NCBI RefSeq assembly: GCF_024345415.1
Contig: NZ_JAGQBB010000003.1
Span: 62,001 to 126,000 of the forward strand
Direction of reading: 5' to 3'
Source of the DNA: Synechococcus sp. Tobar12-5m-g
GTDB lineage: Bacteria; Cyanobacteriota; Cyanobacteriia; PCC-6307; Cyanobiaceae
DNA length: 64,000 bases
This document shows, piece by piece, positions 37,803 through 57,065 of this stretch. The notes beneath the pieces are model-generated. The model was not told where the DNA came from, made no database searches, and worked only from the letters and a program-made list of their open reading frames with translations. The first letter of the stretch is position 1. Every line of letters begins with the position of its first letter. Both the position numbers and the translations under genes were made by a program.

Positions 37803-38003
37803 ATGCCACGTCCTCGTTACCGACAGAATCCCCTGCCGCTGGGAGCAGAGGCACCATCCGCTGAACTGTTCCGACCTGAGCGACCGAACCAGCCGGGCTT
37901 GCAGGTTGCGAAGCAAGGTCAGCTGGATGTGGTGCCACTCGGGCTACTGTTCGATGAATCCCAGGATCTGGGTCCCGATCGTGGATCTACTCCCAACTCA
38001 TGA
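37803..38003 (+). CDS. Small hypothetical protein coupled to the Mrr-like nuclease
   Basis: 66 residues from ATG 37803. The stop overlaps the nuclease ATG (ATGA), the main reason to believe it is translated. It is Pro/Gln-rich and has no known motif. Confidence 0.4.
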   Translation: MPRPRYRQNPLPLGAEAPSAELFRPERPNQPGLQVAKQGQLDVVPLGLLFDESQDLGPDRGSTPNS

Positions 38004-39052: not shown

Positions 39053-39071
39053 GCCGTCAAGGCTTGACGGC
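39053..39071. terminator. Hairpin at the convergent nuclease/brxL junction
   Basis: GCCGTCAA and TTGACGGC pair perfectly around a GGC loop. The hairpin begins right after the nuclease stop and includes the brxL stop codon. It lacks a strong T-run, but its position fits a bidirectional terminator. Confidence 0.55.
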
Positions 39072-41267
39072 GATATAGCTGATCTCACATCCCTTGGTCA
39101 ATCGGGCCTCTTGAACGACGGCCGCAGCGTTAAAGGGAGAAGACTCAAACCGTTGGAAGAGATCCAAGCCGCGATCGAGGGCAATTTTCCAGCCGGTGTT
39201 GGTGGTGAGGCTGCGCGCATGGAAGTTGGGGCTGGCGTCGATCTCCCAGGAAAAGGGAGTACTGGTTCCCGCGAAGGAGTCCTGGACCTGGCCCAGAATT
39301 TCCACCTGCCTCTCCAGGGTCTCTTGATCGGAGCCCGTGATCAAATGCACGGTCACCTCATCGCCCATAGGGGTGATCTCGTTCACCATGCGCAGGAACT
39401 CCACGAGGTTGCGGATCTGGTGGAAGGCGCGGATGTAGGGATCCCGGACAATGATCCCGGTGGTGCCAGTGAGGTAGTCACCGAAGAGGCGACGGTAGCT
39501 CCAACCCTTGGAGTTTTCCGGGACAACCAGATGGTGCTCCTTAAGCTTTGAAGGCTCTGGTGGCTGTGGGGCCACCTCAGCTGCGACGGCTGGAGAGGGA
39601 GGGGACTCACCGTTGGAGGCAACTGAGGCAGTGGTCTTGGATGCCGCAGGCTGACCGCCCTCGCCAGGGGCGGGCTCTGCCCTGTTGATGTCTGCCTCGC
39701 TGGATAGGGGCCGAAGCCCGGAGAAGGCGGGGTACTGCTTCTCCTCAGGCGTCATCATCGTGACCTCTTGGCCGGTCTCCAGGTCGCGGTAGATGAAGTC
39801 GTTGGTTCGGAAGGTATCGTCGATCCTGAGGATCTGCTCTCGTACCCGGCGACGGCACTCCATAGCGAACTCCAACAGCTCGGCAATCTCCTCCTTGCTG
39901 GCCTTGCCATCGGGATGGAGGATCTTCATCAGGCCTGAGAAAGTCTTCTCGAAACCGGTCTGGTCGCGGGTGGAGACCTCCGAGCTGATCTCGAAGAACG
40001 GCTTGTAGAGGCCGGTGAAGTCTTCCGTGCGCAGGTGCTTGAGCACCTCAGCGATGTAGTCCACCACGAAGCCATAGCCGGTGCAGAACAGCTCATGGCG
40101 CACCGGTGCCACTTCCCAACCAGGGTTGAAGGCATGGATGCGATCAAGGAAGGCCGAGTCGATGTACTTGTCTGGCAGCGGCTCGTAGAAATGGGAATGC
40201 TTGAGCATGTAGGCCACCGACTTCTGGGTGTTGCCCATGAACACCATCGACGCTTCTGCGGTGAGCTGCTCGATGCCCCTTGAGAAGGTGCGGTTGGCCA
40301 TGTAGTTCTTCATGATGTCCACCAGGGTCTTGTCGACCTTCTTGTCCTTGCCGGCGAACTCGTCAAAGCAAATGCAATCCCAGTAGCCCACCAGGCCGAT
40401 CTTGCCGCTGGCATTGCTCACGAAAAGCTTTGGTGCGGTGACCTCCGAGCCTGAGATCAGCATGCCGTGGGGGGAGAACTCGGCAAAGATGTGGGATTTG
40501 CCGGTTCCCTTGGGGCCCAGTTCCAGCAGGTTGTAGTTGCGCTCGCAGTAAGGGATCAGCCGAATCAAGGTGAGCAGCTTGGCGCGGCGGCTGAAGTGCT
40601 CGGGATTGAAGCCCACGCTTTGCATGAGCACATCCATCCACTCGTCGGTGCTGAACTTGGCGCGGGCGGCGAGAAACTCGTCGTGGTCAACACCAGCCAC
40701 CTGGATCGGTTTGACGGAGGAGATCTGCCAGGGGCTGGCTTTGGGATCGGTGGGGAGTTCGTACTCGACATCGGTGATGGCCCAGATGCCGCCCACCAGA
40801 AGCTTGGGGTAGCGCTTGATGAAGTCCACATCGATGGGGACCTTCTTGAGGCCGAGGTTGGTGAACTCCATCTCGTAGAAGCCGCCCTTGTCGTTGAGCT
40901 CCACAGTGAGCTTGTCGATCACCTTGTGGGTGCCGCGCTCTTTGATGGTGGACTTAATCAGTTCCGCTTGGTTGCGGTGCACGTAGTGCTTGGAGAGGAT
41001 GCGCCGGACCGATTCCAGCCCCTCGGCAATGAAGGCGGGGTCGTCGGTGGCGCAGTGCTGGCCGAGCAGGTACTCGAGAACGTAGGTGGGCACCACCGCG
41101 TTTTGCTTGAGCTCAGTGGTGAGGTCCTTGCGGACCACCAGACCTGGGAAGTGCTCAAGGATCTTCTGGTCCAGGGCGCTGGGCGTGCGCAGGGAGGCCT
41201 CGCCACTGCTGTCGGTGGTCTTGGCAGTGGGGTCGGGGTTGGTGGCGGTCACGGGCTCAGAAGTCAT
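39057..41267 (-). CDS. brxL: BrxL, Lon-like AAA+ protein of BREX
   Basis: 736 residues from ATG 41267. The AAA+ core has P-loop GPKGTGKSH (251-259) and CICFDEFAG near 300. A Pro/Ala-rich linker (about 540-600) leads to a Lon-protease-like C-terminal domain (ENSKGWSYRRLFGDYLTG). BrxL is the DNA-binding AAA+ effector candidate of type I BREX. It overlaps pglZ by 11 bp and is the last gene of the operon. Confidence 0.93.
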   Translation of the reverse strand: MTSEPVTATNPDPTAKTTDSSGEASLRTPSALDQKILEHFPGLVVRKDLTTELKQNAVVPTYVLEYLLGQHCATDDPAFIAEGLESVRRILSKHYVHRNQAELIKSTIKERGTHKVIDKLTVELNDKGGFYEMEFTNLGLKKVPIDVDFIKRYPKLLVGGIWAITDVEYELPTDPKASPWQISSVKPIQVAGVDHDEFLAARAKFSTDEWMDVLMQSVGFNPEHFSRRAKLLTLIRLIPYCERNYNLLELGPKGTGKSHIFAEFSPHGMLISGSEVTAPKLFVSNASGKIGLVGYWDCICFDEFAGKDKKVDKTLVDIMKNYMANRTFSRGIEQLTAEASMVFMGNTQKSVAYMLKHSHFYEPLPDKYIDSAFLDRIHAFNPGWEVAPVRHELFCTGYGFVVDYIAEVLKHLRTEDFTGLYKPFFEISSEVSTRDQTGFEKTFSGLMKILHPDGKASKEEIAELLEFAMECRRRVREQILRIDDTFRTNDFIYRDLETGQEVTMMTPEEKQYPAFSGLRPLSSEADINRAEPAPGEGGQPAASKTTASVASNGESPPSPAVAAEVAPQPPEPSKLKEHHLVVPENSKGWSYRRLFGDYLTGTTGIIVRDPYIRAFHQIRNLVEFLRMVNEITPMGDEVTVHLITGSDQETLERQVEILGQVQDSFAGTSTPFSWEIDASPNFHARSLTTNTGWKIALDRGLDLFQRFESSPFNAAAVVQEARLTKGCEISYIAVKP

Positions 41268-43776
41268 CAAAATCGCTTCCGAAAGCCCTTTGCAGCTTGA
41301 GCTCCACAGTCTTGCCTGGATCCGGCACCGGGTCATTCACCCCTGCCACCCAGCGCTCGAAGCGCAGTTCGATCGGTTGGTTGTTGTAGGCCTCGGCCGC
41401 GTTAGAAAGCACCAGCTCCAGCCGCTGTTCCCGTTCGCGCGGCTCGGCGGCTGTGGAGTCAAAGACCAGGGTCTTGGATTCACAAAGCAGGGTCCCATCC
41501 GCCTTGGCATAGAGAGCCACCTTCAGGCGGATGGGCAGGACAGTCGGGGAGATGGCGTCCCGCTGGAATAGGGAGACCGGCACCTTACCAGTTGTCACTT
41601 TGCTCGGAACCCGCAGCACCTCAACCTCCACCAGACAGGAATCGTCCTTGCGCTCGCGCTTGAGCTTGATCACTGGCACCACCACCTCTTGCAGCAAGGG
41701 ACCGCCGTGCACGAAGCGTGAACCCGAGCCCTTGATCGGAAAGCGTCCCAGGGACAGGGGGAACACGGCACTCCAGGTGCCCATGAAGCCGAGGGCCTGG
41801 GCCGTGAACACCTTCAGCCCTCTGGCTGGATCGATCTCTTCTCCGTAGGCAAAGCGACGGTTCTTGAAGGTCAGGGCATCCGCCTTCGGGAAGACGGCCG
41901 TATCGATGGTGTCGACCGCTTCCTGCTGGAAGAGGAAGCCGTGATCGGCGGTGATCACCACATGGCTGCCGTTGAGGTTGGCGATCTTGCGCAGGATCGC
42001 CTGCAATTCCTCGAAGGCCTGCTCCACCGCCTCGAAGGTGCTGGCCTCGGTGTTGAGCTTGTCACCCACCTGATCGATGACGTTGTGGTAGATCACGATC
42101 AGGTCATGGTCCTTGGTGAGGGTACGGCCATCGGTGCGGCTGTTGAGAGCCAGGAAATCACCCGCGCGGATGGCCTTGGCACGGCCACCGGTGGCACCCT
42201 TGAGGATCTTGTCGCGGTTGTTGGTACCGCTGGCGCTCTGGCCATCAATCGCCACGGTGGCATCAGCGGGGTTGATGGTGATCTGGGCCCCAGGCAGCAA
42301 GGCGGCCATGCCCAGCTGGGTGTAGCTGGGCAGGGCACCAAAGAGCGCCTCCACCTCGGTGCTCCATCCCTTGCCATGGGTGAGCTTTTGGGCCAACTCC
42401 CGGGCGGCCTCGTAGCGAAGGGCATCGGAGACCACCACAAACAGGCGCTGGCCTTTGGCCAGCACGGGATTCACGTGGCGGGCATAGAACTCTCGCTGCC
42501 TGGGGAGGGCTTCTGCTTGCCAGGTGGTGAGCTTGGCGACCTGATCGCTCCAGTGATCGGAAAGGGGCAGCAGGAAGTTGTTGACGTAGTGGTTCTCCAC
42601 CCAACCCTTGAGCCCTTCCATCAACCCGGGCTGGCCGTAGGCGCGCAGGTTGGCGATGCAGAGGCGATAAGCCTGATCGAGTTGCCACCAGCGCTCCACG
42701 TAGAGCTGGAGGCCTTGATCGAATGAGGCCACGCTGAGCTCGGTGGTCTGCAGAAGGCTGCGCAGCTGAATCGCCTGCTCGATCGCCTGATAGCCGCGGC
42801 GGTGCTTCTCGAACCAGGTGGAACTGCGGCGAGAGCGGATCAACTCCAACAGGGTGCATGCGGGTGCGCCTGCCTGGAAGCCCTGCACAAGCCGGTGGAG
42901 GGTGTAGCGATCAAACAGCTCGAAGGTGTCGTCGTCACCGAGTTGGGGATCCGTGGCATCGGCAAGCTGGGCCTCGATCTGCAGGGTATCCGCCAGCAGG
43001 GTTGACCAGGCCTCAAAGGCAGGCCGGCTGCTGAGGCTGTCTTTCCAGAAGCTCAGGAACACCCGGCCGTGGGGCTTGAGGTCGGCCTTTGCCTGGAGGG
43101 GGTTGACGCTGCGGAACAGGGAAACGGCGAAATCCCGCAGATTCGGCTGGGTGCTGCCGTAGCCAAATTTGGCTACCACCGCTGCCCAGAAGGCCTCCAC
43201 CAGAGCGTGGCTGCCGTAGGCCTCCTGCACCTCATCGCTGAGGGGAAGCTCGTGGGGTTCGGCCCGGCTGAGGAAATGGAGCAGAAGCTTGTCGATGTCA
43301 GCGGGGACCCCCGCCAGCACCGCCATCATCTTGAGGCGGATCGACCTGGCGTCATCGGTGGAGCGCAGTTGCTCCCTGAGCTTCTGGGTGCGCACCATCG
43401 AGCGAAAGAAGGCGCTGTGCTGCTTGGCCAGATCGCGGAATTCCAGGGTGAGCCCGGCGTCCTGGATGTCGAGGGAGGCGCGGTCGGCCTTGAACTCATG
43501 GCCGGCGAGGAGCAGATCCAGGAGCCAGTTGTCTTTTTCCTCTGGCTTCTCGCTGGGAATGTAGAGCAGGAAGCGCTGATGGCTGGGGCCACGGGCCACC
43601 AGCACCTTGCTGGCGAACTCATTGCCTTCCACCCGCCGTTTCTCAACGCCTTTGCCGGTATAGCTCACAAACACATCGCTCCATTCGCCAGGGGCGTCGT
43701 ACCAAATCACCACTCGCTTGCGGGCCAGGGCCGCATCGAGGCTGTCGTGGACGCGGGTGGTGGTAGGGCTCTGCAT
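41257..43776 (-). CDS. pglZ: PglZ, alkaline-phosphatase-fold protein of BREX-1
   Basis: 839 residues. The N-terminus RVVIWYDAPGEW and the phosphatase-like core VVVSDALRYEAAREL (about 446-460) mark the family, with ITADHGFLFQ at about 605 supplying metal ligands. PglZ is a defining BREX component that forms complexes with PglX and BrxB. It starts 5 bp after the upstream GTPase gene. Confidence 0.95.
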   Translation of the reverse strand: MQSPTTTRVHDSLDAALARKRVVIWYDAPGEWSDVFVSYTGKGVEKRRVEGNEFASKVLVARGPSHQRFLLYIPSEKPEEKDNWLLDLLLAGHEFKADRASLDIQDAGLTLEFRDLAKQHSAFFRSMVRTQKLREQLRSTDDARSIRLKMMAVLAGVPADIDKLLLHFLSRAEPHELPLSDEVQEAYGSHALVEAFWAAVVAKFGYGSTQPNLRDFAVSLFRSVNPLQAKADLKPHGRVFLSFWKDSLSSRPAFEAWSTLLADTLQIEAQLADATDPQLGDDDTFELFDRYTLHRLVQGFQAGAPACTLLELIRSRRSSTWFEKHRRGYQAIEQAIQLRSLLQTTELSVASFDQGLQLYVERWWQLDQAYRLCIANLRAYGQPGLMEGLKGWVENHYVNNFLLPLSDHWSDQVAKLTTWQAEALPRQREFYARHVNPVLAKGQRLFVVVSDALRYEAARELAQKLTHGKGWSTEVEALFGALPSYTQLGMAALLPGAQITINPADATVAIDGQSASGTNNRDKILKGATGGRAKAIRAGDFLALNSRTDGRTLTKDHDLIVIYHNVIDQVGDKLNTEASTFEAVEQAFEELQAILRKIANLNGSHVVITADHGFLFQQEAVDTIDTAVFPKADALTFKNRRFAYGEEIDPARGLKVFTAQALGFMGTWSAVFPLSLGRFPIKGSGSRFVHGGPLLQEVVVPVIKLKRERKDDSCLVEVEVLRVPSKVTTGKVPVSLFQRDAISPTVLPIRLKVALYAKADGTLLCESKTLVFDSTAAEPREREQRLELVLSNAAEAYNNQPIELRFERWVAGVNDPVPDPGKTVELKLQRAFGSDFDDF

Positions 43777-43781
43777 CGCGA

Positions 43782-45500
43782 TCAGACCGCAGTGGGATAG
43801 AGCTCAGCCAGCAGGGCCATCAACTGCTTGCGGTGTGCCGCGAGACCCTCCACCAGGGACTTTGTGGACGCTTGATGGGCCAGGATCTCGTCACGGGCAC
43901 GTGTCAGGGCGGAGGCGATCTTCTCGATGATCTCTAAGTCGTACTGGGACTGATAAACCTCGAACAGTCGGGCTGCAGTGGCCTCGGCACTCTGTTGGAG
44001 GGCGGAACGGAAGACCAGCAGCTCCTTCTCGCGTTGACGATCCCTTTTCTCTGCTTCAACTCCCTGGTTGATGACGTCGTAGACCTCGAAGGCGGAGATG
44101 GCAATGCTCAATCCAATCATCAAGTTGCCAGCTCCTTTGACGGCATTAACGGCTCCCCATGGCTTGAACTTGAATCCAAGCAACTTGCCGCCTTCGTAAA
44201 TCACCTTATGAAGGCTGCCACCGGCCACCTCCTTGGCGTCGTACAGCATTTTTGACTGGGTTGCACCGGGTTTGAGAACGGCATCTCGCCCTTGATCGAG
44301 CAACTTCTTGAACGTCTCTTTCAATCCGCCCACGCCACGCTGGGGCGGAGCGCCATCACGCGGTGCGGACTCTGTTAATGAAGCCTCCACCTTGGCGTAG
44401 TAGTCGGCCACAAAGTTCTCCTTGGCGAACTCCTCAAGCTTGGCCTCGATTATTTGGTAGTCACGCTGGAGGGTGGCATTGAGCTCCGTGTAGGCAGCAG
44501 CATTGATGGCCTCCCAGCGCTGATCGAAGGCTTGCTTGTTGGCTTGCTCCTCTGAGCCGAGCTCACCTTCGATCAGCTTCTCGCCGAGTTCGAGCAGCTG
44601 CTGGATGCAGCTGGTTCCGATCTGCTTCACCTCAGCAGCCGTGCGGCTGCGTTGGTTCAGAACAATGCGATGCTGCTGATTGAGAAGGAATAGTTTGGGA
44701 TCGTCCCCAAAGGTGGGTTCCGGCAACGAGGCAAGGCTCTGATCAATGGCGTTCAAGCCTAGGCGGATCGGCGGATCCAATCGGGCCAGCAGGCCCTGGC
44801 TCTGCACCCAGCTGTTCAGGCCATCGATGAAGCCAGGGAAGCGGCTGAAGCTGACCAATTGCTCGTTGCCTGTCGCGATGCCATCGCGGTAGTCCTGGGC
44901 ATCAATGAAGGCATGGGGAAATTTGTTGAGTTGGTGAGGCGAAAGGGTGCGATTGATTGACTCGGTGAGGTTGCTGATGTACTTATCCATATATTCAACA
45001 TCCTCCATGGAAAGCTTGTTGATCACTAAAAAGATCTTGCCTGCAAATCCCTGTTCAAAGGCAAGCTGGCGAAAATCCCTGGCCGTCACCTCATCAAACA
45101 GGTTGGTCGTGAGGCAATAGACGACCAGATCCGACTCCCGCAGCGCCTTCTGGGCTTTTTCGTCATGGTCAATCCGGTTGGCATAGAGCCCTGGGGTATC
45201 CCAGAGTTCAACGCCGCTCCAGGCGTAGGCTGTGACTGAGTCGGTGGTGACATCAGCAGAGATCTTGATCTCCCGATTGCCTGTAAGGGCTGAGATGATC
45301 GTGGATTTACCCGCGCTGAACTGCCCACTGAACGACAGGCTGAGCAGGGAGCGGCCGGCAATGGATTCCCGCTGTTGTTTCAGCTCAGCAGCCTGCTGTT
45401 GGATGGCTGGCTCCGGCCTGGCGAGCAGAAAAGCCTGCAGTTCATCCATGCTACGGGTGCTGCGCCGTTGAAGGTCGGCGAGCTGAAGTGAAGGCGACAT
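43782..45500 (-). CDS. Dynamin-like GTPase embedded in the BREX operon (second of pair)
   Basis: 572 residues. G1 GQFSAGKST is at 59-67, a G2 Thr is in DVTTDSVT, and G3 DTPG is at 101-104. The G4 position reads NKLS (161-164) instead of NKxD. Long helical segments follow, with a hydrophobic patch near 445-465 (GAGNLMIGLSIAISAFEVY). This is the layout of bacterial dynamin-like or LeoA-type proteins that work at membranes, often as pairs. It sits 21 bp after the first GTPase gene and 5 bp before pglZ. It is not part of the standard six-gene BREX-1 set; its role there is inferred. Confidence 0.8.
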   Translation of the reverse strand: MSPSLQLADLQRRSTRSMDELQAFLLARPEPAIQQQAAELKQQRESIAGRSLLSLSFSGQFSAGKSTIISALTGNREIKISADVTTDSVTAYAWSGVELWDTPGLYANRIDHDEKAQKALRESDLVVYCLTTNLFDEVTARDFRQLAFEQGFAGKIFLVINKLSMEDVEYMDKYISNLTESINRTLSPHQLNKFPHAFIDAQDYRDGIATGNEQLVSFSRFPGFIDGLNSWVQSQGLLARLDPPIRLGLNAIDQSLASLPEPTFGDDPKLFLLNQQHRIVLNQRSRTAAEVKQIGTSCIQQLLELGEKLIEGELGSEEQANKQAFDQRWEAINAAAYTELNATLQRDYQIIEAKLEEFAKENFVADYYAKVEASLTESAPRDGAPPQRGVGGLKETFKKLLDQGRDAVLKPGATQSKMLYDAKEVAGGSLHKVIYEGGKLLGFKFKPWGAVNAVKGAGNLMIGLSIAISAFEVYDVINQGVEAEKRDRQREKELLVFRSALQQSAEATAARLFEVYQSQYDLEIIEKIASALTRARDEILAHQASTKSLVEGLAAHRKQLMALLAELYPTAV

Positions 45501-45521: not shown

Positions 45522-47840
45522 TCAGTGCAGGGTTGAGGCCAGGAGGGAGATCTGCTGCTGGCAGCGGTAAATCTGCCCGGCAAAGGCTTGCAGAGCCGTC
45601 TTGGTGCTTCCGAAGGCGAGACTGTAGGAGGAGGCAAGTTGATCCCGCTGGGTGATCAGCAACTGATCGAGGTTGTTGATGAATGGGTCTTTCTGATCCT
45701 TGATGGATCGTAGAAGCTGTTTGCAGAGCTTCTCCTGGGCTTCTTTTCGGCGGTCCTCCATGCCTGGAAAGAAACTTTCAAACCAATCTTGCATCCAGCC
45801 TGTAATGGGGCCAACAATCCAACGCAATGGAGCAAAAGCTATCCCCACTCCCACGACAAGAATCTTGAGGACAATCCTGATGTTTTGTCGCAACGACTCT
45901 TCGTAGCCAATATCAATCATGTCATCGAGACTGTGGCTTAGTCGGATGGTCTGCATCTGAAACTTAAGCCGCTCCTGGATGTCGTCTTGGAGTTGTTGCA
46001 GACGGGCGACGATCTGAATCTTGAGTTCGGCCACGAGGGCATTCGCTTGTGTAGTGAGCTTGGCCTTTTCAATCTCCTGCTTCCAGAGACGCTCCAGCTC
46101 CTGACCATTCTTCTTGAGATGGGTCTTGCTGAATCGCTGGGCCTGGAGTTCAAGCGGGGTGAACAGCGCGCTGCCCTTGCTGGCGGCGAGTCGGCGTGTG
46201 TCTTCAAAGATGTCAACCACACATTTACGCGCACTCACTTCTGCGTCCGCGAGGACCCTGGCCTGCTCCGACAGTCGCTGGTGCAGGGCCTTCAGCTCTG
46301 CGCTGATCATTTCGAGCTCCAATTGCGGGTTCTTGCGCAACGTGTCGCGCCGCAGAGCAGGGGCCTTAGCGGTGATCAACTCATCGAGCGCTTCGAGGAA
46401 ATGATCGATTCGGCTGAGCTGACGCCACTGCTCCGCTTCCGAAGGATTTTGGTTCTGGCTTGCATGCAACGCGGCAACAGCATGGATCGGAATGATGGGG
46501 ACGGCCAGGCTGCCGTTCTCCCCAATGGCCCTGGTGAGAAGTTCCCGAATGGTGATGATGTTGCCGACAATCGACTGCTCTCCCTCCATGGAAAACATTG
46601 GCTCAAGTCGCCTGCGCAGGTCAACAATCCCCTCCTTTGCTTTCGCCTTTACGTTAAGAAGGATTAGAAAGGCTATGCCACGAGCATGCAGCTTTTTTAT
46701 CAGCTCAGGTTCGCAGGGCATGGTGGAGATGTTGTCGGTAACAATACAGACGAAATCGGTTTCAGGGAAGATGCTGCGGGCCACAGCACTGTCGCGAATT
46801 TCCGCCTGTTCAAACGAGGCCCCTTGGCCACCGGCTGCGCCGATGCCGGGGGTATCGATCAACCGCATCCCGAAGAAGTCATAGGCGCGGTTGTAACGGG
46901 TGAACCCCTGGCCGCCATCGCCAATGGAGGCTTGATCGCGACCGGTGAGAGTCGAGATCAATGTGCTCTTCCCTCTCTTGCTACCACCAACGGCGGCGAT
47001 GCAGAAGCGTTTCAAACTGCGCTGCTTGGCCTGCAGATCGTGGTTGAGGCGAGCCAGATCGCTCGACACCAAGCGATCTAGAGTTGAGCGCTCGGTATTC
47101 AGCACCATCTGGAGCTGGCGCCGGCATTCGACAGGCAGCTCGGCAGCGATCGGGTCGGTGCTGATGGCAGCAAAGCCTGCCTGCAAGGCGATTAGCTGGG
47201 AGCTGGCGGATTCCAGCACTGCCTGGGTGTGGGGCATCAACTCCGCCGTGAGCTCATCCATGCTCTCAAGGCTCTGGTTATAGCCCTTGTGATTGAAGAG
47301 GCTGCGCCGCCTCCAGGTACGTAAGCGATGGCTCTGGCGGAGTAGGGCAGCGAGCCTGTCCACACGCTCCTGGCCCAGCTTGAGATCCAGCTGGCGCAGT
47401 GCCCTGATCCTGCGGGAGGGGGTGGGTCGGGGTTGGTTGAGCTCCTTCCTGATGCTCTGAGTCCGTTCGCGGGCGGCCGTGAGCCTTTCTTGCGTGGAGG
47501 CTCTGGTTTGCCCAAGCAATTCAGCCAGGCGTTCAATCGTGGCGATCTCCCGTGGATCGGAGTGGTCGTCGACGGTGGTGATGTCGGCCAGTAGATCGAG
47601 CAAGCCCTCTTGATCTGCAGCAGTCAACTGCCGAAGGGCCTCGACGTTCACCACGGGATCGTCGTGGGCGACCATCAGCCTCTGTTCAGCTTTGGCGAGC
47701 TCCATGCCCCTGGCCTCTCGGTAGGCTCTGAACCAGGAATGGGAGCTGAGCAGGGCGAGCTCATGGACATCCACCAGCTGATCGGCAAAGACCAGCTCGG
47801 CGATGGCCTCCAGGACGGGGTCGGGGGTGGGATCGCTCAT
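45522..47840 (-). CDS. TerB-like domain fused to dynamin-like GTPase (first of pair)
   Basis: 772 residues from ATG 47840, overlapping the pglX stop by 4 bp (ATGA). Residues 1-112 look like a TerB-type helical domain (IAELVFADQLVDVHELALL, then ITTVDDHSDPREIATIERLAELLG). The GTPase has G1 GGSKRGKST (285-293) and DTPG (329-332); G4 is degenerate (NVKAK). Long helical stalk regions follow, and a hydrophobic segment lies at 657-682 (KILVVGVGIAFAPLRWIVG). This suggests a membrane-active, dynamin-type partner of the 43782-45500 protein. Confidence 0.8.
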   Translation of the reverse strand: MSDPTPDPVLEAIAELVFADQLVDVHELALLSSHSWFRAYREARGMELAKAEQRLMVAHDDPVVNVEALRQLTAADQEGLLDLLADITTVDDHSDPREIATIERLAELLGQTRASTQERLTAARERTQSIRKELNQPRPTPSRRIRALRQLDLKLGQERVDRLAALLRQSHRLRTWRRRSLFNHKGYNQSLESMDELTAELMPHTQAVLESASSQLIALQAGFAAISTDPIAAELPVECRRQLQMVLNTERSTLDRLVSSDLARLNHDLQAKQRSLKRFCIAAVGGSKRGKSTLISTLTGRDQASIGDGGQGFTRYNRAYDFFGMRLIDTPGIGAAGGQGASFEQAEIRDSAVARSIFPETDFVCIVTDNISTMPCEPELIKKLHARGIAFLILLNVKAKAKEGIVDLRRRLEPMFSMEGEQSIVGNIITIRELLTRAIGENGSLAVPIIPIHAVAALHASQNQNPSEAEQWRQLSRIDHFLEALDELITAKAPALRRDTLRKNPQLELEMISAELKALHQRLSEQARVLADAEVSARKCVVDIFEDTRRLAASKGSALFTPLELQAQRFSKTHLKKNGQELERLWKQEIEKAKLTTQANALVAELKIQIVARLQQLQDDIQERLKFQMQTIRLSHSLDDMIDIGYEESLRQNIRIVLKILVVGVGIAFAPLRWIVGPITGWMQDWFESFFPGMEDRRKEAQEKLCKQLLRSIKDQKDPFINNLDQLLITQRDQLASSYSLAFGSTKTALQAFAGQIYRCQQQISLLASTLH

Positions 47841-50800
47841 GAATCCTCCTTTGCCGCCAGCCCTGGGATCGGAGCCAGCACGCCGGTGAGCTTGAGGTAG
47901 TTCACCTTCACGCCGTCGTCGAGATCGAGCGAGATGCGCTGCTGGGCCAAGGGCAGGAGGGCCTCCCGCTCCCAGTCCTGGCATTCGCGCAGCACCTTGG
48001 CGATCTTTTCGAGCTCCTTGCGCCCGGCGGTGCGCTTCTTGGCGGGGAGAGCCTCGTTGAGTTGATCCAGCTCGAGCTGGTGCTGGCGGGCCTCCAGCTT
48101 GAGCAGGAAGGGCCGCAGGTAGTTGTTGAGCACCAGGTTGAGCGTGTCCTTGGTGTAGCGGTGCAGGTAGATCAGGCAGGCGAAGCCCTTCTTGGGGCTC
48201 TGCACCAGCCAGTAGATCGGTCGCTTCTTGTAGGTCTGGAGATGATCTTTGTAGAAGTCGGTGCAGAAGTACTTGCGGATGTCCTTGCCAAGGACGGTTT
48301 CAATGAAGCGCAGGTTCTCTGCAAGGGGACTGCATGGGAAGGTTGCCACGAGGAACTCACGGCTGCGGGCCACGATGTCGTCCTCGAACCACTCGCCATC
48401 GAGCACCGGGATGATGCCGTCCTCGTCGGGGGCGAAGGTGAGTTCGGCCAGGGGCTTCCCCACTTTCTCCAGAAACTCACGCAGGGAGTCACCGGCGTTG
48501 GCGATGATGAGGCCGGGCTGGTCGGGGGAATAGCGGCCCATCATGCAGCCGACGCCATAGGAGAGTAAGGCGGCCACATCCGTGCGGGCCTCGGCGCGGG
48601 CGAGGGTGATCTGGTCTTCGGGTACTTCGGGCTGCAACTCGCCGTCGAGGCCGTAGGCGGCGATCAAGAGCCGGTTGTTCTCAGTCTCCAGCTCCTGCAT
48701 CCGGCGGATGGCGGCGGTGCTCTGCGCCTCCCAGTTCCGCCAGCTCGCCTCCAACGCCAGACCCTTCATCCCCGGCCGCAGCAAAGGCTGGTCGAGGAAG
48801 TCCCACGAGGTCTCGAAGTTGTCCCAGTCGGCGCGGGCAATTTGAACCAATTCATCAACGATAGCTTTGAGTTCTGGCCATTCAGATCGAAGGCTGAGAG
48901 GAAGGCTTTCGATTTGTTGGATTTCGATATTTAGGGTTGGGGCGAGGCCTGCCAAAATTGCTCTGGCAATTATCGTGTTACAAAATGAGAGGACTTGGAT
49001 TCGGTCGTTCTCGCTGCTAGCAAATATTGAGCTGCCCGCGACATCGAAGATGAAACCCGTAGGAAATTTCTTAAAAGACGGGAAGCTAGAGCCGACTTTA
49101 GAAAATGAAACGGATTCTCGAAAGTAGAACTCTTGGTTCTTTGCCACAAAGTTTGGATTACCTTTCAAGTAGGGGTATTTACTGACTATCGCGCTTTTGA
49201 TGTCCGCTCCATCATTTCGCCAATTAACAATGTAATGTTGATTGCCCCACCATTTCCGAAACTCGCCACCTTTGTTATAGGGAAACCAGATTTCTTGACA
49301 TTCAATCGTGGCCATTTGAGAGTCTAAACCAAACCCGATATGGCTGTGAGAGACTTCGTGCCAAGAGCGCACAAACAGTGCGTTCTCCGTGGTTGCCAAG
49401 CCCTGCCTCGCGGTGAAGTTATCACCCAGTACTTTGTTGTTTGGGAATAAGTCCAATATCTTCTCAGATAGCATGAATGCAATTGGGCTACTTGGTATTT
49501 TCGCAAAAATTGTCTGGTGCAGCCTACGAACCTCACCCGTTTCGAGTTTCGTCTTGAAGACTTGCTCCTTATCGGCGGTCTGCGGAGCATCATTTAGATT
49601 TACGAAGACACTGCGACTGCCACGTCGAGTCCTTTCAAGGACAAAAGCGCAAGCCTGGACGACCTTGGAGTTCAATTCCGGAAAGCTATTATAGCCGATT
49701 TGAATCAGCATGTTGATGTACTGATTTGCCAATACACTTAGACGCAATGCCTGGTAAGACGAAAGGAACATCCAGCTTTGCATTGTTACAAGAGCTGAAA
49801 AACCTTTTGGCTGAACAAGCCGCAACCCCAGTTCGATGAACATTGCGAAAGTGTCGGATTTGGAGTCTGGAAAATGTTGTTGTCCGTATTCTTTGAGCGC
49901 CGTCCCCATTTGCTTTCCACCCATATACGGAGGATTAGCCACCACTACGTGTTGCCGCTGGGTGAGCGCCTGGGCTTGTTCGAGCACGCGCAACAGTTTG
50001 CTGTGCGTCTCGCGCAGGAAGAGCTGGCCGCCGAGGTCCTTCGCTTCGATTGCCTCACGCACGAACTCCAGGCTCCGTCCATCCATGGCAGGCTGAATCA
50101 GCGAGCCGAAGGTCTTCGCTTCCTCGAACTGGCGGAGCAACTTGAACAGGCTCTGGTCGAAGAGTTCGCCAAGGCCGAGAGCTTCGATGTAGACGTTCAG
50201 TTCTTCCCCGTCAAACCGCACATTCTGCAGCTCAAGGATTTGGGGCCGCAGAAGCTGATCAGGCTGGAAGAAGCGCCGGGATTGTTCCCTGGCCTTGAAG
50301 ACGAGAGCCAGCTCGGCGAGCTGGGCGGCGCGGGGGCAGATCTCCAGCCCGTGCAGATTGTGCCGGAGGATGAGGGCGGGGATCTCGGTGGGGGCGTAAC
50401 CTTCCTCCTCGTAGATAAGGGTGAGCAGGTCGAAGGCGTAGGTGAGCATGTGCCCACTGCCGCAGGCCGGATCCAGCAGCTTGATCTCTTCCGGCTTGCT
50501 GATCCTCAGGAAATCTGTTTCCTCTTCGCCCTCGATGTAGTACGGCATCTGCTCGCGCAGCTTCGAACTGGGCCGGTTCAGCAGCCATAGGCGCCCCAGG
50601 GAATTCTCAACCAGGTAGCGCACGATCCAGTGGGGCGTGAACAGCTGGGTGACAGCGGGGATGTCTTCCGTGGGCACTGCCTTCTTGCGGGCCATCACCT
50701 CATCTTTTTTCTCGGCGATATAGAACTGATACAGCCAGCCCAGGAGCTCCACGTCGTCGCAGTCGGCGTCACTGATCGAGCGTCGGAAGCCCGCCGCGAT

Positions 50801-51358
50801 CGAGCCCTCCGTGAGCAGGTCATCGGGCAGCAATAACTCGGTGGCGTCATCGAGCCCTTCGAACAGGCTGGGCAGGAGCTGGTGATAGAAGCGGCACACC
50901 GCCAGCACCAGCTCCCTGTACACCTCCCCCTGGGGGTCTGCGCCGGGAAGGGCCGTAGGGATCTGGCCATCGAGCAGTTGGTTCAGCCGTGCTTCCTGGC
51001 AGTGGCTTGTCAGCTCAGCTGGAAGGTTGGCGCTGCGCATCAGCTTCAGCAGCTCCGGCTGGGTGTCCGCCTCCGTGGCCGGCATCAGCACCCTGGCGCC
51101 GAACGGATGCCAGCCCCGGGCATCGAGGTAGCGCAGCGCCGCCAGCCGGTTGAACCAGCTGTAGGCCACACGCTCCAGCAGCTCCTGTCGGCTGTCTTGC
51201 TCCTGCTGCCGCAGCTCGTCGATCTGCCTGGCGTAGGTGGTCAGCGTGTCCGGCGTCTGGCTGGTGAGCAGCCGATCCAGCTTGCGGCCCACCGCCTCGA
51301 TCAGCTGCCGCCGCATCGCCGGGGCGAAAGTTTTGAGGCTGGCGGTGTTGAGGGGCAT
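47837..51358 (-). CDS. pglX: PglX, BREX-1 adenine-specific DNA methyltransferase
   Basis: 1173 residues from ATG 51358. SAM motif DPACGSGH lies at 296-303 and catalytic NPPY at 475-478. It methylates host DNA at a non-palindromic site and is needed for BREX defence. Residues about 490-840, the target-recognition part, are encoded by visibly AT-richer DNA (48.8-49.9 kb) than the rest of the gene. An in-frame GTG/ATG run upstream to 51433 is not conserved-looking. The stop overlaps the GTPase start. Confidence 0.95.
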   Translation of the reverse strand: MPLNTASLKTFAPAMRRQLIEAVGRKLDRLLTSQTPDTLTTYARQIDELRQQEQDSRQELLERVAYSWFNRLAALRYLDARGWHPFGARVLMPATEADTQPELLKLMRSANLPAELTSHCQEARLNQLLDGQIPTALPGADPQGEVYRELVLAVCRFYHQLLPSLFEGLDDATELLLPDDLLTEGSIAAGFRRSISDADCDDVELLGWLYQFYIAEKKDEVMARKKAVPTEDIPAVTQLFTPHWIVRYLVENSLGRLWLLNRPSSKLREQMPYYIEGEEETDFLRISKPEEIKLLDPACGSGHMLTYAFDLLTLIYEEEGYAPTEIPALILRHNLHGLEICPRAAQLAELALVFKAREQSRRFFQPDQLLRPQILELQNVRFDGEELNVYIEALGLGELFDQSLFKLLRQFEEAKTFGSLIQPAMDGRSLEFVREAIEAKDLGGQLFLRETHSKLLRVLEQAQALTQRQHVVVANPPYMGGKQMGTALKEYGQQHFPDSKSDTFAMFIELGLRLVQPKGFSALVTMQSWMFLSSYQALRLSVLANQYINMLIQIGYNSFPELNSKVVQACAFVLERTRRGSRSVFVNLNDAPQTADKEQVFKTKLETGEVRRLHQTIFAKIPSSPIAFMLSEKILDLFPNNKVLGDNFTARQGLATTENALFVRSWHEVSHSHIGFGLDSQMATIECQEIWFPYNKGGEFRKWWGNQHYIVNWRNDGADIKSAIVSKYPYLKGNPNFVAKNQEFYFRESVSFSKVGSSFPSFKKFPTGFIFDVAGSSIFASSENDRIQVLSFCNTIIARAILAGLAPTLNIEIQQIESLPLSLRSEWPELKAIVDELVQIARADWDNFETSWDFLDQPLLRPGMKGLALEASWRNWEAQSTAAIRRMQELETENNRLLIAAYGLDGELQPEVPEDQITLARAEARTDVAALLSYGVGCMMGRYSPDQPGLIIANAGDSLREFLEKVGKPLAELTFAPDEDGIIPVLDGEWFEDDIVARSREFLVATFPCSPLAENLRFIETVLGKDIRKYFCTDFYKDHLQTYKKRPIYWLVQSPKKGFACLIYLHRYTKDTLNLVLNNYLRPFLLKLEARQHQLELDQLNEALPAKKRTAGRKELEKIAKVLRECQDWEREALLPLAQQRISLDLDDGVKVNYLKLTGVLAPIPGLAAKEDS

Positions 51359-51419
51359 GGGGCTGAAAACAGATAGCCAGGGGATCAGGGGGAGAAGCGC
51401 AGGAGAAGCGACTTGGGGC

Positions 51420-52898
51420 TCAAGGGCTCCCACCTGAGGGCTCAGGCAGCAGGCCTGCCGTGAGATCGACCAGCGACTCGGGCAGGTAGCCCTTCGCTTC
51501 GATCGCCAGGCGTTCCTCGGGCGTTAGCGACGGTGCAAGGGCCACCCTCTCGACCTGCCAGCCGGCGAAGCGCGGGAAGGCCTTCAAGAACCGAGCGACA
51601 TGACCGTCAAACCGACCCAGATCCGCTACTAGAGCCGTTGATGAGCGCTTGCAGCTGCCGAGCCGCAAGTGCTGATGGGTTTGATCGAGGGCCACCAGGT
51701 CGATCTCGGTGTCGCTCCGGTCCCACCAGCCCTCGATGCGGGACGTGAGAGGGAAATCCCCCAGCCCCTTGCGGCTGCGTTCCTCGTAGAGCTGGCCCAC
51801 CAGCCGCTCGAGCCCATGGCCCTCGGCGGTCATCAGCCGCTGATCCGCTTGTTCCACCAGGACATTCAGAGGGCGGAAGTTGATGGCGGCCGTCGGCACG
51901 GCCAGCGCATCCAGCCAGCTGCGCAAAAAGTTGTCGCTGATCGTGTAGTGCCCCCTTCTGGCTTTGGCCTTGGCGAACACCGGCAGCCGCTTCTCCACCA
52001 TTTCGTACTTCTCTTCCAGCGTCTTCAAGTAGCCCCCCACCTGGCTGCCGATCTCGGGGGCCACCGAATCGGCATGGGCCTGCAGATCGGCATGGGTGCA
52101 ACCCGGGTGGCGGGCCACATACTTGAGCACCAGGTCATAGCGGCCCCGGAGTTCCCGCAGGAACCAGTTGTCGGCTTCGGTTCGCAGGGGGGAGCTGCTG
52201 CTGAAGAACATCCGCTCCAGCAGCGTTTGCCGATCGGCGGCGATCACCCCCTGCTCGAAGCAGTCGCGGTAGAACTTCGGCACCCCCTCGAACAGATTCC
52301 AGAGGAACAGCAGCCGCTCCGGTGAGGTGTCCGCATGGGCCTGCAGCAGTTCCAGCAGCGAGGCGATGTCGAGATGGCCCAGGCTGATCGTGTCGGTGAG
52401 GCGCTGGTAGAGCGGTGCGCTGCGATCTTCCAGCAGCGCCTGCATCTCCGTGTGCAGGGAGCCCAGCACGATCAGACCGCCCCTGGCCTCGGGTGTGGCG
52501 GCCAGCCGATCCACCACCGACTGGAGTTCCGAGGTGAAGGGAAACAGCGCCTTGCGGCTGAAATACTGGAATTCATCGAGCGCTACGATCCAGCCCTCGG
52601 CGCAGAGCTCACCGATGCGCACCGCCAGCGACCGGAGGTCATGGGGCAGAGGTGCGCTTACCCCGAAGTTCTCCATGAAGTCGCGGGCCGTGCTCACCAC
52701 ACCGGCAGGATCGGAGTCGGGGATCTGGATGTAGAGCACCCGCTCCCGGCGTTCCGGTTTGAGCAGCTCCTGCACCAGGCGTGTCTTACCGATGCGCCGT
52801 CGCCCGGAGATCTGCAGGAAGAACCAGCGGCCCCGCGCGAGCACCGAGGCCAGCTGCGAGCGCTCCTGATGCCTGCCGTAGAACCCCCACTCCGTCAT
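51420..52898 (-). CDS. AAA ATPase with DUF234-type C-terminal domain, inside BREX
   Basis: 492 residues. P-loop SGRRRIGKT spans about 31-39, and WIVALDEFQYF (about 104) is Walker B. The C-terminal DUF234-like domain shows TEIDLVAL and GSCK, where family members usually have ECK, so the nuclease-like Glu is replaced by Ser. Its own putative promoter lies at 52923-52951. It separates brxC from pglX and is not a standard BREX-1 core gene. Confidence 0.8.
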   Translation of the reverse strand: MTEWGFYGRHQERSQLASVLARGRWFFLQISGRRRIGKTRLVQELLKPERRERVLYIQIPDSDPAGVVSTARDFMENFGVSAPLPHDLRSLAVRIGELCAEGWIVALDEFQYFSRKALFPFTSELQSVVDRLAATPEARGGLIVLGSLHTEMQALLEDRSAPLYQRLTDTISLGHLDIASLLELLQAHADTSPERLLFLWNLFEGVPKFYRDCFEQGVIAADRQTLLERMFFSSSSPLRTEADNWFLRELRGRYDLVLKYVARHPGCTHADLQAHADSVAPEIGSQVGGYLKTLEEKYEMVEKRLPVFAKAKARRGHYTISDNFLRSWLDALAVPTAAINFRPLNVLVEQADQRLMTAEGHGLERLVGQLYEERSRKGLGDFPLTSRIEGWWDRSDTEIDLVALDQTHQHLRLGSCKRSSTALVADLGRFDGHVARFLKAFPRFAGWQVERVALAPSLTPEERLAIEAKGYLPESLVDLTAGLLPEPSGGSP

Positions 52899-52965: not shown

Positions 52966-55900
52966 TTACAGGCTGATCCGGTGGCCCGCATCAAGCTCTG
53001 CCTGGGCCGCAACCCGCAGGGCCTCCAGCCACTGCTGCAGCTCCCCGGAGTTGGTGATCTGGCCCAGGGGAAAATCGGGTTTCAAACTCAGCGCCGTCAC
53101 CACTTTGATCGGAGGTCCCGGTGCATCGGCCGGCGCGGCCAGAGCTGCCACCCGTTGCAGCAGCGCAGGTACATCCGCCTTCTGGAAGCGGTCCAGCCGC
53201 AGCTGCACCCGTGAGGGCTGCTCCGCCTTCGCCAACTCCTTCTTCACCCGATCGGTGCTGGCGAGCACCTGTTCTTGCTGCTCCGGTGCCAACTGCTGGA
53301 AATCAGCCCCAGCCTGGAGCTTGGTTTCCTGCTCGGTGATCTGGATCAGGGCCTTGGAGCGGGCGATCTGAAGCCGCTCCTCCAGCAGACCTTCCAGCGT
53401 GGCGACGGCCCCATTGGCCTCCGGTATCAAGGAACCGCGATAGGGCGCTGGGCTGTCCATCACCCGCTCCAACGCTGCCACCTGCTCAGAGGGCAGCTCC
53501 ATCAGATCGTCGCCGTGCTTGGCCAGGAAGCTCCGCACCTTGTCGTACACCAACCTCTGGTTGCCCTTCAGGAACGCCTTGATCGGCGTGAGTGTGTCCT
53601 CCAGCTGCTCCAGCAGTTCACCTGTGAACAGAGCCTGCTGGTTGAAGAGGTAGGGGTCGTCTTTAAGGCTCAGCTCCCGGACCTTGGCGGCGATCGGCGC
53701 CACACCAGCCACGAAGGGATAGCGCTCCTGCTGGCTGGCGAGGGCGTCGAGCTCGGCGGCCTCGCGGGCCAGCGCCTCGCGCAAGGCGCTGGCGGTGGTT
53801 CGGGAATCGGTGCCGCTGCTCGTTACCCCGAAAAAATCCTGGTGGAAGCGCCTGAGCGTGTTGATCGCTGCCGGATCGGGTTGCTCCTGCTTGCGCACCA
53901 GCACCAGCCCCTGGCGGCGGCTGTTGGTGAGCGCATCGATCACATCATCGGGGCCGAGGATCTCCTTCTCGCGCAGCTCCACCTTGCCCAGGCGGAACAG
54001 CCGGCCTAGGAAGGTGAGTGTGGCCCAAGGGCTCCAGCCATAGGGCCTCGCTTCAAACACCCGGATCAGATCGGCGGCGGAGGTGCGCTCCCCTTCCAGT
54101 TTCTGGCGGCGGATCACTTCGGTGAACACCTCCTGCTCCGCCTCCGAGAGCTGCAGGTCGCTGCCAGCCAGTAGGTCGTCCTGCTCCTGCACCACCTGCA
54201 TCAAGGTGCCTTCGTTGTGGATCTGCTTCACCATCCGCAGCTTGGGGTAGGCCGAGCGGATCAACTCCTGATATGCCTTGGAGAAGCGGTTTTGGGGATC
54301 CCCTTCCCCCACCTCCAACCGCCTGCCGTTCACCACCAGCGGGGCCCGCCGCAGCGCCTCGCCGGCCAGGCGGGTGATCTCACTGCGGCGGGTGCTGTTC
54401 TGCCGGCCCCGCTGGGCCAGGATCTCCCTGAGCGCCTCGTCTTCGCCGCCGGAGTTCTGCTTGATGTATTTCTCAGTTTTCAGATAAGTGCGGATCAGAT
54501 CCGTGAGCCGACCCTGGGGCGGCAGGATCACCATCAAATCGGCGCGTCCCATGTTCTGAGCCACCAGAACAGCCTCATTACCAAAGTTGGGATGTTCCGT
54601 GGTGATCACGTTGACGGCCACGTCCTCCAACTTGCCCTTCACCAGGTTGTCGTCGATCTTCTGGGCATAGGCATAATCCTGGTTGTTGTCTTCGAAGCGG
54701 ATCTTGTTGGTGCGCAGCACATCGTTGAAGATCGTGGCCTGCAGGGATGCCATCACCTGGGAGTCTTCCACCGTGGTGATCTTGATCTCCTGCTCCACAT
54801 CCTTTTCCTTGTCGGTGAGGAACTCGTAGAGCTCACCACTGCGCTGCAGGTAGCTCTGCACTTCCAGGTTGCGCAGGGCCTCCTTCACCTGCTGCTCATG
54901 GCTGCGGATGTCGAGAGCGGGCTGATCGATCAGCAGGATCGAAATGTTGCGGGGTGAGGCCTTGAACGGGGTCACCCACTTGAGCAGGAACAGGGCCTTG
55001 AGGATGCGCAGCTCCAGCGGCGCCACCTGGCGTTCCGCCAGCACCATCGTCTGCTGCTTGTCGCCGCGGATCACATCGCGGATGCCGTCGTACAGCTGAT
55101 CGAAGCTGGCGAGCTTGCCGATCGGCAGATCCATGATCGCCTTGGCCACCTCCTGGAACACCGAGAGCATCGAGCGTTCACCCACGGCCATGTTGCGGCC
55201 CCCAAACACGTTGTGAACGGCCAGGGTCTGCAGGGCCTGCTGGAACAGGTTCAGCTGATAGGGGTGGAAGGGGTAGAGGCCACAGAAGGCCTGGCAATCA
55301 GCCCAGCCCTTGAGTTGCACGGCGCCATCACCGAAGCGGAACAGGGTCTGGAGGTTGTCCTTCTCTGCCCCATAGATCTCGATCAGCTCATCCGGCTCCA
55401 CAGGAGTCTTCTCCAGCAGCCGCCGCTGAATCACCTCCTGCACATCGGCGCTGGCCAGGGTGAGCTTGGTGCGGAAGCGGCCTTGGATCTTGCTGAGGTC
55501 ATCGGCCTGGCGCACCTTCTCCTCGCCCAGGATTCCCTCCAGATCCGCCTGGGAGGTGACGAACACAGAGGCACGGCCATTGGTGGCCGTCGCCAGGCTT
55601 TCCACCACGGTCTGCAGATTGAGCAGGCGGCTGCGGTCCTGGCCGATGAACTGGCCGGCCTCGTCCACGAAGAAGTTGAGCCTGCAGCCTGGTGGTTGGC
55701 TCTCGAGGTAGTCGCTCACGCGGGCCGCCAGACCTTCGATTGAAAGGCGGTAGTCGGCTTTGGCCTCACCGATCACCTTCATCGCTTCCTCTGAACTGGT
55801 GGAGAACAGTTCGGCGTAGGCCATTGCGAAGGCGCTCTTGGTCACGGTGGCAACCGCTTCCCGGTCCTTCTCCCAGCTGCGGTCATTCAGCCGGAGATAG

Positions 55901-56451: not shown

Positions 56452-57065
56452 GAGCTCGGGGTTTCGAAGTAGGCGAGGTTGGTGGCGCGGTAGTGGGGGT
56501 TTTCGATCTTGGTGTTGGGCGTGGTGCCAAACAGCCGCAGGTAGGAGCCGCCATCGGCATCCTGCGAATAATCCCCAGGGAAAAAGATCACTACGGGATG
56601 CTTCACCATCTCCGGTTGCAGGGCCTCGATGATGGCGTGGGTGCGCAGGAAGGGATAGATCCGCCCCGAACCCGTGATCAGGGTGAGTTGGGGGTTCTTG
56701 CCAATGGCTGCCATCAACTTCGGCACCAGCTCCTTGGTGGGCTCCGAGACGTTCTGCAGGGTTTCCAACAGGGCGCTCTTGGCCCAGCTCGACTCCTCCT
56801 TCAGCAGGACTTCCAGAAAGCCCTTCTCCTCGAGGAGCTCAATCACCAGGTCGAACAGGTCGACATGGGTCACGCGCAGTCCAGCCTGTTTGAGCCCCTG
56901 GAGCAGTCCTTTGACGATCTGGCGTAGCTCGTCTTCCTCGGAAGGGTCATAGGTCTGGATGAAGATTGGGATCTCCTTGGCCAAACCCTTCATCGCCAAG
57001 AAGCTGGGTTGAGCCAGGACCTGCCTCAGCCTCTGATCCAGACCAGTGGTGGTTTTGTCGCTCAT
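56448..57065 (-). CDS. brxB: BrxB, DUF1788 protein of BREX
   Basis: 205 residues. FIQTYDPSEEDELRQIVKGL and the conserved HPVVIFFPGDYSQD and LRLFGTTP are hallmarks of BrxB. It is a small core protein thought to bridge PglZ and other subunits. ATGA overlaps join it to brxA and brxC. Confidence 0.94.
   Translation of the reverse strand: MSDKTTTGLDQRLRQVLAQPSFLAMKGLAKEIPIFIQTYDPSEEDELRQIVKGLLQGLKQAGLRVTHVDLFDLVIELLEEKGFLEVLLKEESSWAKSALLETLQNVSEPTKELVPKLMAAIGKNPQLTLITGSGRIYPFLRTHAIIEALQPEMVKHPVVIFFPGDYSQDADGGSYLRLFGTTPNTKIENPHYRATNLAYFETPSS

Follow-up and report, generated by a model that had tools for sequence, protein, structure and literature searches.

Related Systems and the Locus

TerB domains and dynamin-like proteins have each been described in the defense of bacteria against phage. 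The subject of this report is a gene pair that brings the two together: a dynamin-like GTPase with an N-terminal TerB-type domain (G1) and its dynamin-like partner (G2), which lie within a bacteriophage exclusion (BREX) operon of Synechococcus sp. Tobar12-5m-g. The whole stretch of DNA that was analyzed, 64,000 nucleotides of contig NZ_JAGQBB010000003.1 (positions 62,001 to 126,000), is referred to as the window, and coordinates given without a locus are those of the window.

LeoABC of enterotoxigenic Escherichia coli, in which LeoA has been proposed to act with LeoBC (PMC4159319), resembles the window in its tandem LeoBC-type and LeoA-type genes. The PADLOC models of LeoBC and LeoA fit G1 and G2, and the structure of LeoA (4aur) is the top Foldseek match of the G1 model. 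Unlike in the window, LeoB and LeoC are described as split genes, and the genes belong to the tia locus and not to BREX. The term TerB does not occur in the main text of that paper. In Campylobacter, the pair Cj-DLP1/Cj-DLP2 tethers liposomes, and a 119-residue N-terminal assembly domain of Cj-DLP1 is reported to be essential for oligomerization with its partner (PMC6104087). The window pair resembles it in that one of the two proteins begins with an additional globular domain of some 120 residues; unlike in the window, no defense operon is described in the available text of that report. DynA of Bacillus subtilis is a bacterial dynamin-like protein that delays phage-induced lysis and so protects against phage (PMC8844932). 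It differs from the pair in being a single two-headed protein derived from a gene fusion, and no defense operon is described for it in the available text.

Shango and Bunzi are anti-phage systems that contain TerB (PMC10952713), and Dionysus is also named among such systems in part of a review. As described in PMC10250203, TerB in Shango is combined with helicase and ATPase genes and not with a dynamin. An earlier, sequence-only reading of the window had stated that TerB domains are known from phage-response systems, and these papers bear it out. The window shares BrxA, BrxB, BrxC, PglX, PglZ, and BrxL with type I BREX and adds the dynamin-like pair and a candidate PDC-S27 protein. In the main text of a 2026 survey of BREX (PMC12839542), the words dynamin, GTPase, and TerB do not occur, and the auxiliary effectors described in the available text are nucleases. 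The literature searched, which consisted mostly of top-ranked listings, with subscription papers and supplements largely outside its scope, yielded no account of dynamin-like proteins paired within BREX.

TerB-Type Domain of G1

G1 is encoded on the minus strand at 45522..47840, and its TerB-type domain occupies residues 1–124 (47469..47840, minus strand), with boundaries that are best set at residues 8–124. The sequence-only reading had noted a resemblance of the first 112 residues to TerB. Profile searches and a comparison of predicted structures both returned TerB, and the observation is confirmed.

Residues 1–112 match Pfam TerB (PF05099) with 21.8 bits (E = 2.4e-4), and TerB is the sole Pfam family found for this region at E ≤ 1. 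The gathering score of the family is 24.4, and the sequence of the window protein by itself is thus suggestive. Five of the six G1 relatives tested pass the cutoff. Five distant relatives from cyanobacteria (21–23% identity) have N-termini that score 29.1–46.0 bits, and the copy from genome G026 (49% identity) falls below the cutoff at 22.3 bits. The alignment of six BREX-type N-termini with 22 N-termini from stand-alone relatives was compared using hhalign, which gave a probability of 90 over 107 columns (E = 1.7e-6, from one pairwise comparison and not from a database search).

The profile of the stand-alone N-termini was searched against the PDB and detected 2ou3, a tellurite resistance protein of COG3793 (E = 0.0035), and 2jxu, a TerB (E = 0.0072). 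The profile of the six BREX-type N-termini by itself detected neither 2ou3 nor 2jxu, nor any other TerB structure, in the PDB. With the family profile of full-length G1, 2ou3 (E = 0.00011) and 2h5n (E = 0.0037), the latter of which we take to be a TerB-like structure, were obtained. The signature of TerB is presumably two acidic D...E motifs, and two such motifs are present in the window protein as D20/E27 and D91/E98. Among 25 N-termini these positions are conserved in 22 (D20), 22 (E27), 23 (D91), and 24 (E98) sequences. The ratio of nonsynonymous to synonymous substitution rates for the TerB domain is 0.05 for L032/L033 and 0.14 for L024/L163, the two BREX-type pairs compared, and the domain in BREX-type G1 is therefore under purifying selection.

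Kinship to TAL-effector repeats was also considered. When the PDB was searched with full-length G1 using phmmer, TAL-effector repeat proteins were matched with E values down to 1.3e-6 over query residues 33–240, a region that spans the TerB domain plus the helices that follow it. These matches are read as a similarity in composition between leucine-rich helical stretches and were set aside because a single one of them (4osk) contains a stretch that passes by itself and because they are not reproduced by the profile searches. Separately, a weak match to HTH_10 was seen in 6 of the 22 stand-alone N-termini (best E = 1.4e-5).

The AlphaFold2 model of residues 1–124, calculated from 25 sequences, is all-helical with a mean predicted local distance difference test score (pLDDT) of 89.4. 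Four chains of 2h5n head the Foldseek matches of this model (E = 0.05–0.14, probability 1.00), and 2ou3 is in ninth place (E = 2.8, probability 0.63); no match was obtained at E ≤ 0.001. Using VIA-align, the model aligns with 2h5n at a Z score of 10.1 (111 of 124 residues, 3.8 Å) and with 2ou3 at 9.8 (109 of 124 residues, 3.2 Å). The next-best fold is that of unrelated globins, at a Z score of 4.7 or less, and by these scores the predicted model has the all-helical fold of TerB. For helical bundles, Z scores below about 13 can signify a common arrangement without kinship, and the weight therefore rests on how far the next fold falls behind and on the agreement between methods.

Dynamin-Like Pair

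G1 (772 residues) is a LeoBC-type dynamin-like protein, and G2 (572 residues; 43782..45500, minus strand) is a LeoA-type dynamin-like partner that follows after 21 bp. The open reading frame (ORF) of G1 as called mechanically begins at 47984. The start assumed in the sequence-only reading, the ATG at 47840, is the likely one and overlaps the stop of PglX, which ends at 47837. PADLOC matches LeoBC to residues 191–758 of G1 (E = 3e-55) and LeoA to G2 (E = 2.3e-86); Pfam Dynamin_N also matches G2 (E = 3e-7).

The GTPase domain of G1 spans residues 278–462 (46455..47009, minus strand) and was located by Pfam MMR_HSR1 (E = 8.7e-8), the predicted structure, and sequence motifs. The P-loop reads GGSKRGKST, T314 lies in switch I, and a DTPG motif is present. 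The model of all 772 residues has a pLDDT of 80.2 and a predicted template modeling score of 0.73. Its order is TerB, further helices up to residue 274, the GTPase, long stalk helices, a tip, and a long C-terminal helix. The hydrophobic paddle or tip covers residues 637–693 (45762..45932, minus strand), with a Kyte–Doolittle peak of 2.2 at residue 654. It was assigned from hydropathy and low model confidence, the pLDDT falling below 50 at residues 637–649 and 660–693.

LeoA (4aur) is the first Foldseek match of the full model (E = 4.2e-8), and BDLP1 (2j69, E = 1.9e-7), IniA (6j72), SynDLP, and the Cj-DLP pair (E = 6.6e-5 for Cj-DLP) are further matches. When the whole model was compared using VIA-align, single GTPase domains led, and mitofusins, IniA, SynDLP, and Cj-DLP were among the matches. 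With its GTPase motifs, its neck and trunk helices in the predicted fold, and its tandem LeoA-type partner, G1 is dynamin-like by predicted fold, and the fusion of TerB to a dynamin-like GTPase proposed from the sequence is upheld. Lipid binding and GTP hydrolysis by G1 are putative, the sequence itself contributing the hydrophobic tip.

BREX Operon and the PglX–PglZ Slot

The sequence-only reading had also placed the GTPase inside a BREX operon, and PADLOC locates the pair between PglX and PglZ. Minus-strand genes form an operon-like row between 57832 and 39057, in the order BrxA, BrxB, BrxC, PDC-S27, PglX, G1, G2, PglZ, BrxL. The gaps between genes are at most 67 bp or negative, with a 4-bp overlap of PglX and G1. 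The same order PglX–G1–G2–PglZ is found in the window, L024, L033, L163, and L165. L032 and L165, each of 18,006 bases, are apparently one contig (G305) and L033 shares the coordinates of G226, so that five distinct operons are counted, from the window and genomes G026, G226, G242, and G305.

Intact BREX-type G1 occurs in 5 of 400 genomes of the family, and a further genome, G335, contains fragments only. A match to the BrxL ATPase was found in 40 of the 400; all five intact G1 genes lie on the same contig as such a match and less than 10 kb from it, and none of the five is interrupted by a stop codon. The closest relatives of G1 outside the window are from Vulcanococcus limneticus and an uncultured cyanobacterium. 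Within the genomes sampled, the BREX form of the pair was seen in picocyanobacteria only. In a phylogenetic tree the five BREX-type G1 proteins form one group, with a value of 100 in the Shimodaira–Hasegawa-like approximate likelihood ratio test, on a branch of 2.74 that carries a long-branch warning, and their nearest relatives are unsure because of this branch. G2 was too distant to serve as an outgroup.

Fifteen stretches around BrxL matches, chosen by hand from those listed among the family genomes, were compared. The pair is present in two of them (L163 and L165). Five others (L158, L159, L160, L161, and L164) contain a closely related BREX core, with 60–64% identity to the window for PglZ and 81–92% for BrxL, and no pair. 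The other eight contain more distant BREX proteins or BrxL by itself, and no pair was detected in them at E = 1e-5. In L160, PglX and PglZ overlap directly and the slot is empty. The slot is filled by an AAA_15 ATPase and a small gene in L159 and L164, by a gene that matches EVE weakly in L158, and by HATPase_c_4 and AAA_16 genes plus a HipA-like gene (identified by eye) in L161. HipA-like genes are also found downstream of the pair in L033 and L163. The pair was considered as a component of the BREX core, and this was rejected on the basis of the five related core operons that do without it and of the PglX–PglZ overlap in L160. Since related operons hold other genes or none at this position, the pair is optional; the PglX–PglZ gap is an accessory slot, and the pair is one of its several occupants.

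Two of the operons show irregularities. In G242, PglX and G1 are kept apart by a gene that, judged by eye, is transposase-like (L163, 4626–6309), and G1 has an isoleucine in place of methionine at the usual start. PglZ of G305 is divided between two frames that overlap, one of 250 and one of 672 residues (L165, 3518–6074), which reflects either a frameshift or an assembly error.

The type I BREX core of the window is complete, with all six components detected by PADLOC and each in an open frame. All are on the minus strand: BrxA (57062..57832, E = 7.1e-38), BrxB (56448..57065, E = 2.5e-42), BrxC (52966..56451, E = 0, 1184 bits), the methyltransferase PglX, also called BrxX (47837..51433, E = 0, 1298 bits), PglZ (41257..43776, E = 1.1e-223), and BrxL (39057..41336, E = 3.3e-294). 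BrxL matches BrxL_ATPase (E = 8.5e-123) and ends in a phospholipase-D-like domain (MIT_C, E = 1.9e-32). Phage exclusion and methylation of the host are predicted for this operon from its gene content. The candidate PDC-S27, an AAA/DUF234 protein on the minus strand (51420..52898; PADLOC E = 4e-222, DUF234 E = 1.7e-5), sits between BrxC and PglX, and a copy with 89% identity is found upstream of PglX in L161 (18653–19999), clipped by the end of that stretch. A gene for an Mrr-type restriction endonuclease (38000–39052, plus strand; Mrr_cat E = 1.5e-20) is convergent with BrxL. Near the operon there is also a gene whose product ends in a nucleoside phosphorylase-like domain (35380–36228, plus strand; PNP_UDP_1 E = 1.4e-7).

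Relatives outside BREX

Contigs were scanned with an alignment of seven G1 relatives, which gave 86 relatives, of which 80 were kept as loci; an earlier scan with the single G1 protein had yielded 20 candidate stretches, none of which was confirmed as a relative. A G1-like ORF is present in 79 of the 80 loci, a G2-like ORF in 70, and both in 69. In 64 loci, G2 starts on the same strand within 600 bp of the end of G1. G1 is at least 690 residues long in 62 of the 80.

A hidden Markov model (HMM) of TerB was built from five stand-alone relatives. Of these 62 proteins, 48 are matched at the N-terminus or close to it (weakest E = 0.0011), and two of the 48 are partial (L061 and L070); this rate is biased, as seed genomes recur and the loci were found with an alignment that carries TerB. 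The HMM gave no match to G1 of L032, L033, or the window. The 22 stand-alone N-termini used above were picked after the HMM matches had been seen, so that the finding of TerB in 21 of them (E ≤ 0.1) is likewise biased. Pfam TerB was applied to ten further N-termini. Those of L055 and L095 exceed the cutoff, and L082 (23.1 bits), L073 (24.3 bits), L071 (17.8 bits), and L099 (16.3 bits) fall below it; L053, L094, L103, and L111 gave no Pfam match, and the first two of these match the HMM. The Pfam matches among further members of the G1 family come from Bacillota, Spirochaetota, Bacteroidota, and Marinobacter.

The fusion of TerB to a dynamin is common in a LeoBC subfamily, mostly away from BREX, and is hence not specific to BREX. 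The sequence-only reading had proposed that the fusion would tie a membrane-associated sensor module to the defense operon; the TerB fold, the dynamin fusion, and the embedding in BREX are supported, and the role of TerB as a membrane-associated sensor is hypothetical. Because the fusion is common mostly outside BREX, it most likely predates entry into the BREX operon and arrived there ready-made. Recurrent embedding in BREX in other cyanobacteria was looked for and was not seen in 388 genomes of the class, many contigs of which are short. In G084, matches to G1 and PglZ lie on one contig more than 700 kb apart.

Fused dynamin pairs, as in DynA, are possible where G1 lies inside open frames of 1417, 1411, and 1713 residues (G697:C3:4033230-4035704; G535:C1:1489077-1491452 and 828890-830851). 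A G1 relative with two GTPase features is encoded on a plasmid of Pseudanabaena galeata (NZ_CP112878.1, 6064–9016).

Other defense systems adjoin the pair at several loci. In a Marinobacter metagenome-assembled genome (L082, 1883–17507), the pair is enclosed in a gene row, with an SNF2 helicase (best match DrmD, E = 5e-94) and a type IIG-like methylase (E = 1e-274) ahead of G1 and G2 and PDC-S37 (E = 0) after them. In Bacillus sp. ISL-41 (L053, 9218–20283), the pair is directly upstream of the Zorya genes (ZorA, ZorB, ZorC, and ZorD) and of a gene for a type I methylase. Single neighbors matched by PADLOC include Cas9 in L090, Dsr2 in L104, type I restriction in L106, an MkoC/PDC-S37-like protein in L055, and a HEC-01A-like ATPase in L036; L104 and L106 fall in a group without TerB. 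In the scan of 20 neighboring proteins, 15 matched a PADLOC model, one being G1 itself and some being remote, and five matched none.

Discussion

With the predicted fold, the pairing, the slot, and the selection in place, we infer a function for the pair, namely that of an accessory membrane-tethering module that backs up BREX, with TerB as a docking domain. A probability of roughly 50% is assigned to this proposal. G1 and G2 would assemble into a hetero-oligomer that would tether or reseal the cytoplasmic membrane where it is damaged by phage injection or lysis. The pair would thus form a second layer behind BREX, at a stage on which BREX does not act. In the least certain part of the proposal, TerB would hold G2, like the assembly domain of Campylobacter Cj-DLP1, or would hold a defense protein, and would not itself sense tellurite or metal. 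An extended version, which we consider rather unlikely, makes the pair a portable membrane-guard cassette that was separately recruited by DNA-targeting defenses (BREX, the helicase–methylase system of Marinobacter, and Zorya); TerB would serve as an adaptor, so that recognition of foreign DNA leads to tethering of the membrane where injection or lysis takes place.

A number of observations weigh against the proposal of a membrane-tethering module that works with BREX. Some concern the protein. Against dynamins, G1 has low template modeling scores in Foldseek (for LeoA, 0.25 relative to the query), as is expected for hinged proteins. The search of the PDB with the G1 family profile returned Era/Der GTPases instead of dynamins. 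The NKxD region of the window protein reads LLNVKAK, which does not clearly show the canonical motif; seven relatives have LLN and then V or I in this region. The assembly domain of Cj-DLP1 has been called Campylobacter-specific (PMC6104087). Other observations concern the operon and its relatives. The five related operons that lack the pair indicate that BREX does not need it, and the BREX of G305 may be broken, given its split PglZ. Only 2 of the 80 loci (L032 and L033) contain BREX genes in a blastp search with the window proteins, which covered flanks of at most 10 kb and which a diverged BREX could escape. In the 388 genomes of the class, a G1 relative was found in 34 and a PglZ match in 38, with both within 10 kb of one another in the window only. 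In the filamentous cyanobacteria whose ORFs were inspected, most neighbors of G1 look like housekeeping genes, as read from ORF starts. The pair can exist without a TerB domain, as in an Acetobacteraceae-like group of G1 proteins (703–731 residues) in which neither the HMM nor Pfam detects TerB. The N-terminus of G1 next to Zorya in L053 has no Pfam TerB match and scores 30.8 bits with the HMM. No enrichment for defense genes is claimed, since the stand-alone neighborhoods scanned were few and picked by eye.

The main rival to docking is a role of TerB as a sensor, close to that proposed in the sequence-only reading. Its conserved acidic residues would bind a metal ion, or a metabolite set free when the membrane is damaged, and would thereby activate the dynamin pair. 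Metal binding is known among TerB-fold proteins, the four acidic positions are nearly invariant in the 25 N-termini, and TerB proteins occur in anti-phage systems. The acidic residues may instead be kept for folding or for contact with another protein, and the ligand is hypothetical. None of the operon proteins scanned matches a TerC-like membrane partner, in searches that were not aimed at TerC. The sensor role is possible but doubtful.

It is also doubtful that the pair is a general system for membrane maintenance or vesicle release that travels in the BREX slot with no role in defense. The family is mostly stand-alone, and in E. coli the vesicle content of two marker proteins is reported to fall to about half when leoA, leoB, or both are lost (PMC4159319). 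Against this explanation stand the identical position between PglX and PglZ in five operons, the 4-bp overlap with PglX in the window, the stop-free G1 in all five copies, and the separate occurrences next to other defense systems.

That the pair is an abortive effector, which would disrupt the membrane and kill the cell when BREX fails, is quite unlikely. The interval also holds genes for HipA-like proteins (L033 and L163), an AAA_15 ATPase (L159 and L164), and HATPase_c_4 (L161), and auxiliary nuclease genes in BREX loci have been read as backup effectors (PMC12839542). However, DynA, whose role against phage was tested, is described as protecting membranes instead of breaking them, and toxicity of the pair is hypothetical. 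A chance resemblance of an all-helical region to TerB is very improbable: the Pfam score below the cutoff, the Foldseek E values above 0.001, Z scores of about 10 that helical bundles reach through arrangement, the failure of the stand-alone HMM with BREX-type G1 and of the BREX-type profile with TerB in the PDB, and the phmmer matches to repeat proteins over residues 33–240 would allow it, but Pfam on the relatives, hhalign, the PDB profile search, and the predicted structure all agree, and the Z score for TerB is twice that of the best unrelated fold.

The window protein offers a concrete test of the role of TerB, as the domain is small, conserved, and removable from one gene of a defined defense operon. 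Should the pair and BREX work together, a system regarded as acting on phage DNA would also have an arm at the membrane, and more backup effectors could be sought in the PglX–PglZ slot.

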